Source: a bacterium
Lineage (GTDB): Bacteria; JAHJDO01
Direction: 5' to 3'
DNA: 30,341 nucleotides
Assembly (NCBI GenBank): GCA_030652805.1
Contig: JAUSPT010000046.1
Span: 1-30,341 of the forward strand
A program made the translations under genes and the position numbers. Numbering within the stretch: the stretch's first letter is position 1; each line of letters starts with the position of its first letter. Shown here piece after piece: positions 13,363-15,136 of this stretch. The notes beneath the pieces were generated by a model. It made no database searches. It was not told the DNA's origin and was given only the letters and a program-made list of their open reading frames with translations.

Positions 13363-13842
13363 CTAGTCCTCAATTTCTCTTATAGCATTCAATATCTCAG
13401 TCTTATTCTCCGCGTATAAAAGCCGTTGTCGGAAAGCTTCTTTTTTTAGTAATCTTATCAGATGCGCTAAAACCTGCAAGTATTTGTTGATATCCTTCTT
13501 TGGAGTTCCCATTAAAAAAATCAGTTTTGCAGGTTTGTTATCCGGCGCGTTAAAATTAACTCCATTGATAGATCTTCCAAACGCAATAATAATATTATTT
13601 ACAGCATCTGTTCTGGCATGCGGGATAGCTATCTCATTTCCTATTGCAGTAGGACACAATTTCTCTCGGGCAAAAACATCCTCTAAGAACATATCAAAAG
13701 CTGCGACTTCTTCAGCGTCTTTTAATAATTCAGCCAGCTCTTTTATTGCACTTTCCTTTGTGGTATTTTTCAAATCCAGACAAATCATTTTTTCTGAGAC
13801 ATAGTCCGATATTTTCATGTTTAAGATCTTCTTTTTTTCCAT
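13363..13842 (-). CDS. PTS EIIA domain protein, nitrogen/fructose type (copy 1)
   Basis: The 159-residue protein is a single PTS_EIIA type-2 domain (PtsN/FruA-like). It contains AIGNEIAIPHART with the phospho-acceptor histidine at residue 75, and the later block KLIFLMGTPKK, typical of the fold. No EIIB or EIIC domain and no HPr or EI gene is in the window, so a regulatory phospho-relay role like PTS-Ntr is more likely than sugar transport. The ATG at 13842 has TAGGT 6 bases upstream, lying across the stop of the previous EIIA gene. It is a clear paralogue of the next gene, and both share IPHARTDAV. Confidence 0.87.
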   Translation of the reverse strand: MEKKKILNMKISDYVSEKMICLDLKNTTKESAIKELAELLKDAEEVAAFDMFLEDVFAREKLCPTAIGNEIAIPHARTDAVNNIIIAFGRSINGVNFNAPDNKPAKLIFLMGTPKKDINKYLQVLAHLIRLLKKEAFRQRLLYAENKTEILNAIREIED

Positions 13843-13849
13843 AATTTAC

Positions 13850-14308
13850 CTAGAACTCAACCTTTCTAAATTTCTCTATAACCTCTTTTGAACTGGACGC
13901 GTTAAGAAGCGAATCCCTAAAAGATTTTTCCTGTGAGAGCTTGGTCAAACGGGCCAATATTTTTAAATGCCTGTCTAAATTTTTCTTTTTTGGCGTGCCA
14001 ATCAAAAAGATAAGTTTGACCGGTTTGCCGTCTAAAGAGTTGAATTCCACTCCCTCAGGCAATCTTGCAAAAACTATTACAAAATCCTTGACGGCATCAG
14101 TTCTAGCATGAGGGATAGCCACCCCTTTACCAATTCCAGTTGTCTTTAGTTCTTCCCGTGCAAAGATATCTTTAAGAAAGACATCAAAGTCAATCATTTC
14201 CTTCGCCTTTTTTAAAGGTGCAGATATTTTTTTGATTGTTTCTTTTTTGTTACGCGCCTTCAGATCAAAAATCATCCTGTCATCTCTAAGGTAATCTCCA
14301 ATTCTCAT
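13850..14308 (-). CDS. PTS EIIA domain protein, nitrogen/fructose type (copy 2)
   Basis: The 152-residue protein is again a lone EIIA type-2 domain. The active histidine is residue 67 in GIGKGVAIPHART, and KLIFLIGTPKKK follows in the same place as in copy 1. A strong Shine-Dalgarno (GAGGAGAGG) precedes the ATG. The 7-base gap to copy 1 and the shared motifs point to tandem duplication followed by divergence. With all catalytic residues intact, it should be phosphorylatable by HPr or NPr. The 33-base gap to the HTH-EIIA gene upstream suggests the three form one transcript. Confidence 0.87.
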   Translation of the reverse strand: MRIGDYLRDDRMIFDLKARNKKETIKKISAPLKKAKEMIDFDVFLKDIFAREELKTTGIGKGVAIPHARTDAVKDFVIVFARLPEGVEFNSLDGKPVKLIFLIGTPKKKNLDRHLKILARLTKLSQEKSFRDSLLNASSSKEVIEKFRKVEF

Positions 14309-14341: not shown

Positions 14342-15052
14342 TCAAGTTCCTTCTGTTGGACATATATTTATTTTTTCGAACTCCAACAATATTTTTATTA
14401 CTTCACTTTCGTCACCTGCCCGCATAAATTTTTGAACAACATTTGTAGTATGAGATAATTTAGAAATTTTTCTTAAGAGTCTCAAATGTGTAATTGTGTT
14501 GGTGGCACATGGCATAAAAAATAAATGTACTTTTTTATTATCGGGAGCAAAAAAATCCGCGCCTTTTTTTGAACGTGCCATTATTATATTTGGTTTTTTA
14601 AATAAGTTGGCTGTAGGGTTGCGTGGATGCGGGATAGCAATACCATCTCCTACCGCAGTGCTTAGCATATTCTCTCTTTCTCTTAATTGATGAAACAGTT
14701 CTTTAGTGTAGAGAGTTAAACCAGTCTTATTCGCAATCTGCGCTAACTCATAGAGAACATCATCCCTCTTTCTGGATTTTAAGTCTAAATTTATAGAAGA
14801 AATCTTCATCAATCTAGATAATGGAATAATATCTTCTTCTATAGTTTTAATAAGGATATTTAAATTGTCACTGGAAGATTTTATTGTGCTTTTCTGTAAA
14901 TGTGTATCGACTGCAGACAAATAAAAACGCCATTGATTAGCAATTTTTATTCCGGGAAGTTTTCCTGTTTGCGCCATTTTTAAAATGGTTTTTTCATTTA
15001 ACTTTATATAATCTGCCAATTCCCTCGTAGTCATTATTGTATTATTTCTCAA
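14342..15052 (-). CDS. Fusion of an excisionase-type HTH domain with a PTS EIIA domain
   Basis: Residues 7-55 form an excisionase/MerR-like DNA-binding domain: MTTRELADYIKLNEKTI, then KLPGIKIANQWRF, the typical recognition helix and wing. After a linker, residues from about 85 to 230 are an EIIA type-2 domain with the acceptor histidine (His142) in AVGDGIAIPHPRN and the LFFMP block that matches LIFLxGTP in its neighbours. The design suggests a DNA-binding protein controlled by phosphorylation state. The 236-residue form starts at TTG (15052) with AGGGA about 8 bases upstream; ATG at 15034 is a good alternative, giving MTTREL. It is the first gene of the EIIA trio and lies right behind a promoter carrying three phased repeats, a likely site for its own product. 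Confidence 0.85.
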   Translation of the reverse strand: MRNNTIMTTRELADYIKLNEKTILKMAQTGKLPGIKIANQWRFYLSAVDTHLQKSTIKSSSDNLNILIKTIEEDIIPLSRLMKISSINLDLKSRKRDDVLYELAQIANKTGLTLYTKELFHQLRERENMLSTAVGDGIAIPHPRNPTANLFKKPNIIMARSKKGADFFAPDNKKVHLFFMPCATNTITHLRLLRKISKLSHTTNVVQKFMRAGDESEVIKILLEFEKINICPTEGT

Positions 15053-15080
15053 TGTTATTTTCCCTATCCTTGGATTAGAT

Positions 15081-15110
15081 AATTACTTATATTAACTTAT
15101 TCTAACTTAT
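15081..15110 (-). repeat. Three tandem 10-bp repeats overlapping the promoter, probable operator
   Basis: Three consecutive decamers, 15101-15110, 15091-15100 and 15081-15090, all begin ATAAGT on the minus strand. The first two share ATAAGTTA and the third reads ATAAGTAATT. The period of exactly ten bases places each copy on the same face of the helix. The first copy overlaps the -10 box and the rest cover the predicted transcription start. This is the usual place for a repressor site. The nearest candidate regulator is the HTH-EIIA fusion encoded 28 bases away. Confidence 0.5.
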
Positions 15111-15136
15111 AATACCATGTAAAATTATAATATCAA
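15109..15136 (-). promoter_or_regulatory. Predicted promoter of the EIIA cluster
   Basis: On the minus strand TTGATA (15131-15136) is followed after 16 bases by TATTAT (15109-15114). Each differs from the sigma-70 consensus by one base. It reads toward the HTH-EIIA gene, whose start is about 57 bases downstream of the -10 box. The assignment is by eye from consensus only. Confidence 0.5.

Follow-up and report, generated by a model that had tools for sequence, protein, structure and literature searches.

The question raised by this locus is which protein reads a short row of direct repeats lying on a promoter, and with what effect on the genes behind it. The window, that is, the whole 30,341-nucleotide stretch that was analysed (contig JAUSPT010000046.1), carries these repeats in a 146-bp gap downstream of secDF, ahead of a gene that encodes a helix-turn-helix (HTH) domain fused to an EIIA domain of the phosphotransferase system (PTS). 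The array, its spacing, conservation and promoter phasing, its association with the gene, the folds of the two domains and the presence of a phosphorelay were computed here. The array is very probably the site through which the HTH-EIIA protein controls the gene cluster that it belongs to, as well as ion-antiporter genes in relatives. The best explanation, to which we assign a probability of roughly 0.72, is a cooperative autorepression operator that is tuned by phosphorylation of the EIIA domain.

The first-pass annotation had described ATAAGT-type repeats behind TTGATA-16-TATTAT at exact 10-bp steps, and this arrangement was found to hold, with no repeat at any other lag. On the minus strand the copies are ATAAGTtaga (15110-15101), ATAAGTtaat (15100-15091) and ATAAGTaatt (15090-15081). 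The first of them shares the last two bases of the -10 element, and the 16-bp spacer of the promoter ends in TGG. When the 110 nt upstream of the HTH-EIIA gene were shuffled with dinucleotides preserved, not one shuffle out of 5000 contained a hexamer present three times at lag 10; with all lags from 6 to 15 allowed, 4 did. The exact ATAAGT triple occurs only once in the 2.0-Mb assembly. The three 10-bp copies thus stood as claimed; their register, starting at ATAAGT, was slightly off and was replaced by the unit RRGTTAAWAT once relatives had been compared (Table 1). As secDF lies on the same strand, on the other side of this 146-bp gap, transcripts begun farther upstream could run through, so that the promoter may lie inside a longer transcription unit.

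Table 1. Features of the HTH-EIIA promoter and operon in the window
Feature	Position	Strand	Remark
-35 element TTGATA	15131..15136	minus	TTGACA-like hexamers at the matching place in nearly all relatives
-10 element TATTAT	15109..15114	minus	in phase with the array
Weak fourth repeat unit ATGGTATTAT	15109..15118	minus	contains the -10; the triple including it has a weight-matrix score of 27.1
Repeat unit 1 AAGTTAGAAT	15099..15108	minus	weight matrix from relatives
Repeat unit 2 AAGTTAATAT, equal to the consensus	15089..15098	minus	weight matrix from relatives
Repeat unit 3 AAGTAATTAT, imperfect	15079..15088	minus	perfect AAGTTAATAT in sister genome G002
Possible ribosome binding site AAGGATAGGG	15062..15071	minus	read from sequence
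HTH_17-PTS_EIIA_2 regulator, 236 aa, TTG start	14342..15052	minus	N-terminus MRNN matches relatives' MKNN
Stand-alone EIIA (PF00359), IPH motif present	13850..14308	minus	Pfam profile
Second stand-alone EIIA (PF00359), IPH motif present	13363..13842	minus	Pfam profile

Homologues of the HTH_17-EIIA protein were taken from five named Omnitrophota assemblies, from the same-genus sister genome G002 and from 18 of 384 genomes of the phylum, the five named assemblies being among these 18 carriers. As the closest named homologues belong to Omnitrophota, the organism of the window is provisionally assigned to that phylum or to a neighbouring lineage. This gave 22 loci with usable upstream DNA, the window included, whose proteins share 45-99% identity. 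In 18 of the 22, the -10 is overlapped or closely followed by a clear array; two loci have a degenerate one and two have none. Absence of the repeat from close relatives had been set beforehand as the observation that would speak against the operator; instead, the sister genome and a further 16 loci carried a clear array, and the proteins of these 16 are roughly half identical to that of the window. The best three-copy repeat was found at lag 10 in 20/22 loci, with a mean of 4.77 identical columns at that lag versus 2.1-2.7 at each other lag from 6 to 15 (22 loci). In the conserved unit RRGTTAAWAT, positions G3, T4, T5, A6 and T10 are nearly fixed. With a leave-one-out 10-bp weight matrix, three tandem units scored 20-38 bits in the 18 loci, and the controls at lags 8, 9, 11 and 12 gave about -18 to +13 bits. 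The two degenerate arrays, G060b (4.9 bits) and G269 (8.2 bits), still had lag 10 as their best lag. No array was found by the matrix at G257 (G257a) or G226 (about -20 bits); the G226 gene begins 18 bp after the preceding gene of its operon, so that no promoter is expected there. Nor was any array evident upstream of two distant HTH-EIIA proteins outside the group (L012 and L016, about 28-29% identity). Upstream of HTH-EIIA copy b in G060:C54 (L073), diverged 10-bp periodic units were observed, GGCGGAACAT and AACGGAATAC, perhaps reflecting a changed binding specificity.

In an array-anchored comparison of 17 loci, pairwise identity was 0.65-0.78 within the array, 0.46 in the ten bases preceding it, where the -10 often sits, and 0.26-0.35 in most flanking blocks farther out. 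Since the array is conserved and its flanks are not, the conservation does not reflect the inertia of recent ancestry. The region is AT-rich, as a chance or low-complexity tract would be; however, the shuffling result, the conservation against unconserved flanks and the recovery of the site by a model trained on other genera make the probability of such an origin negligible. The array is a real observation, not a product of chance.

The array is tied to the promoter. In almost all loci the array is preceded or overlapped by a TTGACA-like and a TATAAT-like hexamer with 16-18 bp between them. Counted from the end of the -10, the first unit begins at -20, -10, 0 or +9 to +12, except in G432 (+6) and in G247 (+28), where the promoter prediction had a weak score. 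The use of TAAWAT within the unit as the -10 accounts for part of this phasing; even so, about one turn is also kept at the loci whose -10 is separate (G061, G062, G335, G216b and G312). Every HTH-EIIA array is in the sense orientation. The distance to the start codon is variable, about 11 to 45 nt, which favours a DNA site over an RNA site. A role of the repeats at the RNA level, as a leader element or translational operator in the 5' untranslated region, would agree with their place mostly between the expected transcription start and the ribosome binding site. Nevertheless, the exact 10-nt spacing in 20 loci would be needless for an RNA reader, the phase is set by the -10 rather than by the start codon, and units overlapping the -10 in several loci are not transcribed, so this reading is very improbable. 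Judged from the position of the units, the predicted effect of the HTH-EIIA protein on its own operon is likely repression.

The fusion of an HTH domain with an EIIA domain, proposed for the first gene, was confirmed by Pfam profiles, which placed HTH_17 (PF12728) at residues 7-54 (E 3e-9) and PTS_EIIA_2 (PF00359) at residues 82-224 (E 1.8e-29). In a full-length AlphaFold2 model built from 20 homologues, the EIIA domain was modelled confidently and matched EIIANtr (1a6j, 4gqx; VIA Z 19.7, rmsd 2.0 over 147-149 residues), and the linker between the domains was loose (residues 56-74, pLDDT under 50). Because VIA returned only matches to the EIIA part of this model, the HTH was modelled alone (residues 1-57), which gave a winged helix with a pLDDT of 85.9. 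Its best Foldseek match was BldC (6ama; prob 1.00, TM 0.72-0.74, E 7.7e-3), and its best VIA matches were BldC 6ama and 6amk (Z 8.4 and 8.3, rmsd 2.2 and 1.6, over 53 and 51 residues, respectively). Xis and RdfS were among the next-best folds, and at such low Z values, on a domain of 57 residues, BldC, Xis and RdfS are not firmly separated. The match to BldC came from fold comparison only; a sequence-profile search of the PDB did not report it.

BldC of Streptomyces (PMC5859096; PDB 6AMA, 6AMK) assembles head to tail into filaments on 9-bp direct repeats and may repress by a steric block of RNA polymerase. Like the HTH studied here, for which it is the nearest solved fold, it is a small MerR-like winged helix of the HTH_17 class. 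Its sites are also direct repeats in variable number, about one helical turn apart at the promoter, with an AT-rich unit containing a conserved G-C pair. Of the BldC-type features, the HTH_17 winged helix and direct repeats on one face (3-4 units at 10 bp, 18/22 loci) were found. Two were not: the BldC repeat AATTXXXX(C) is 9 bp long (PMC5859096) whereas the HTH-EIIA unit RRGTTAAWAT has 10 bp, and BldC is a free 68-residue protein without an effector domain whereas the HTH here is fused to a PTS EIIA. In addition, BldC governs a developmental regulon, whereas the HTH-EIIA protein has its own promoter as almost the sole strong site per genome. The cooperative binding of a small HTH protein, which had been expected from the spacing, is supported by the exact 10-bp steps and by the closeness of the HTH model to BldC.

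This kinship also bears on whether the HTH-EIIA protein binds the array but activates through a MerR-like distortion of the promoter, as its HTH belongs to the MerR/BldC/Xis superfamily and BldC distorts and shortens its DNA (PMC5859096). Activation is unlikely, however, as the units lie over the -10 and the initially transcribed region, not in the -35/-10 spacer, and most of the promoters look near-consensus unaided.

The specificity of the site was assessed by pattern and model searches, on which the genome-wide statistics rest. A sequence-only covariance model (R1) was built from 15 loci, all outside the window's genus. Its top site in the window's genome was the window site, at 21.4 bits (E 6e-4), and the next reached 12.0 bits; in the sister genome the array site scored 29.7 bits and the next 13. 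Across the 384 Omnitrophota genomes, 13 of the top 14 sites were HTH-EIIA promoters, and the best site of the genome was the HTH-EIIA promoter in 17/20 carriers. In the other three carriers, the best site lay elsewhere (G226), there was none (G257), or the own degenerate site came second, at noise level (G269). Array and gene are thus closely associated, and the autoregulation proposed by the first-pass annotation is well supported. As to a wider regulon in the window's own genome, the model search gave no second site above 12 bits, and nothing was evident before the EIIA-CPA2 pair on C97, the EIIA-PilZ gene on C55 or the HTH_17 gene on C41.

From this comparison of genomes, the HTH-EIIA protein is the predicted binder of the array, with high likelihood. 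Alternatively, another protein, an HTH_17 or nucleoid-type one, might bind it, with the HTH-EIIA gene merely one target. Similar 10-bp-periodic arrays of the GGTTACTAT/GGTTAACAT type do occur in multiple copies before housekeeping genes in some Omnitrophota genomes, and the window's genome encodes a standalone HTH_17 protein, the domain of which shares about 47-50% identity with the window's HTH. Yet the HTH-EIIA promoter is the sole strong site in most carriers, as expected of a dedicated local operator, and the housekeeping-type arrays have no copies in the window's own genome, which renders a different binder rather unlikely. The standalone HTH_17 gene (G000:C41:937-1170, L076) lacks an evident 10-bp array, and its product resembles MAD1 of the methylation-associated defence system.

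The window operon consists of HTH-EIIA, EIIA and EIIA, with no antiporter in it; a paralogue of the distal EIIA, 78% identical, adjoins a CPA2 antiporter on contig C97 of the same genome. In most relatives one EIIA gene follows HTH-EIIA. A CPA2 antiporter lies downstream in G111, G335, G061, G223 and G325, and also in G269 and G060b without an intervening EIIA, and a CitMHS/ArsB-type transporter lies downstream in G144, G216a, G060a and G432. The carrier G432 has, moreover, a four-unit array (GAGTTACTTT AGGTTAGTTT AAGTCACTTT AGGTTAAGGT) situated 10 bp after TTGACA-17-TATAGT and preceding a gene that reads from its sequence as a CPA2 antiporter. Transport of ions or anions is the probable physiological output, given that CPA2 Na+(K+)/H+ antiporters or CitMHS/ArsB-type transporters are encoded in the operon of relatives and, in one case, at a separate locus. 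Unphosphorylated Escherichia coli PtsN is cited in PMC13104625 as inhibiting the K+/H+ antiporter YcgO, which makes ion transport a sensible output.

Contig C24 of the window's genome encodes hpf-EIIA-HprK-tpiA-HPr-EI (tpiA named from sequence, the others by profile), so that EI and HPr, the possible phosphoryl donors, are both present. For the PF00359 class of EIIA, the EIIA fold, the phospho-acceptor His of the IPH motif and encoded EI and HPr were all found. The window protein has the phospho-acceptor, His142, as do all aligned orthologues but one: in G062 (L062/L035, MHFD01000030.1), Pro replaces the active-site His (IPPPR) in an intact gene with a well-kept operator array. Phosphorylation therefore cannot be needed for function everywhere, and phospho-control of the HTH-EIIA protein is tentative, with chances slightly below even. 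The protein shares the EIIA fold (VIA Z 19.7) and the IPH motif with EIIANtr (PtsN), and the EIIANtr-type EIIA here stands next to cation/proton antiporters in relatives; PtsN, however, lacks a DNA-binding domain and works through contacts between proteins, whereas HTH-EIIA has the HTH. A second unusual EIIA fusion, to PilZ, was observed in the window's genome (G000:C55 20000-26000; L081:2445-3287).

Under autorepression, HTH-EIIA monomers would align head to tail, one per turn, over three to four consecutive turns. Spanning the -10 and the first ~25 transcribed bases, the row would repress the HTH-EIIA, EIIA, EIIA operon. The stability of the oligomer would change once the conserved His of the EIIA domains is phosphorylated by the EI-HPr relay, which is encoded elsewhere in the genome. 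A more specific version, in which BldC-like monomers at every 10 bp form a filament that is opened or closed by phosphorylation of the EIIA His, is speculative and perhaps one step less probable than phospho-control as such. If true, Omnitrophota would have a direct coupling between PEP/energy status and the transcription of genes for EIIA and for cation/proton antiporters.

Both domains, the binding mode of BldC and the annotation of HTH-EIIA fusions in other bacteria are already known. Chlamydia ptsN_2 (Cpn0061) has the same two-domain layout, by annotation only: an expression table in PMC5723314 lists it as 'PTS IIA protein + HTH DNA-binding domain', with no operator given there. The excisionases RdfS and Xis (PMC11963761; PDB 8DGL, 4J2N, 2IEF) are similar in HTH class and form head-to-tail filaments, but unlike HTH-EIIA they act on recombination sites and have no EIIA domain; for RdfS, no consensus motif was found (PMC11963761). 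No described operator for an HTH-EIIA fusion was found in the open-access literature. What is new is a BldC-like direct-repeat regulator with a PTS domain, a 10-bp unit and a precise predicted operator. The comparison gives a family from an uncultured phylum an operator, a predicted binding mode and a likely output, the antiporter genes, and would link the PTS phosphorelay, which in E. coli acts on K+/H+ antiport via protein contact, to direct control at the DNA.

Several further arrays were noticed in other genomes. The multi-copy 10-bp-periodic GGTTACTAT/GGTTAACAT arrays were located in G382:C133, G421, G410, G223 (C44 and C57) and G380 (C6 and C55), at loci L124, L127-L128, L130, L137 and L146-L147, with 6-17 pattern matches per genome versus 0-1 in controls; several are antisense and lie 3-28 bp before the starts of apparent pth, leuD, trmD, gyrA and ilvE genes. 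The sole non-HTH-EIIA site among the top 14 R1 sites, G226:C4:73877-73907 (L106, L145), is a 23.4-bit array upstream of an apparent anaerobic ribonucleotide reductase gene. It adjoins two CAATATATTG elements resembling NrdR boxes, gene and boxes being named from the sequence.

Forty weaker sites were read in context, and five of them, in other genomes, were 14-57 bp before standalone HTH_17 genes. The probability of this enrichment is 1e-8 to 1e-5 under an assumed, not measured, background of 5-20 HTH_17 genes per 1500. Three of these five genes are followed by Fic/Doc genes. AAGTTAACAT-type 10-bp repeats stand directly before the HTH_17-Fic/Doc genes in L143 (G392:C44, 270-292), L138 (G153:C2, about 1531-1556; its HTH_17 assignment is below Pfam's cut-off) and L157 (G241:C131, 116-136). 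The RRGTTAAWAT motif can be used to find sites of related HTH_17 proteins, HTH_17-Fic/Doc pairs included, and the HTH_17-Doc loci with such repeats look like autoregulated toxin-antitoxin pairs with a related operator.
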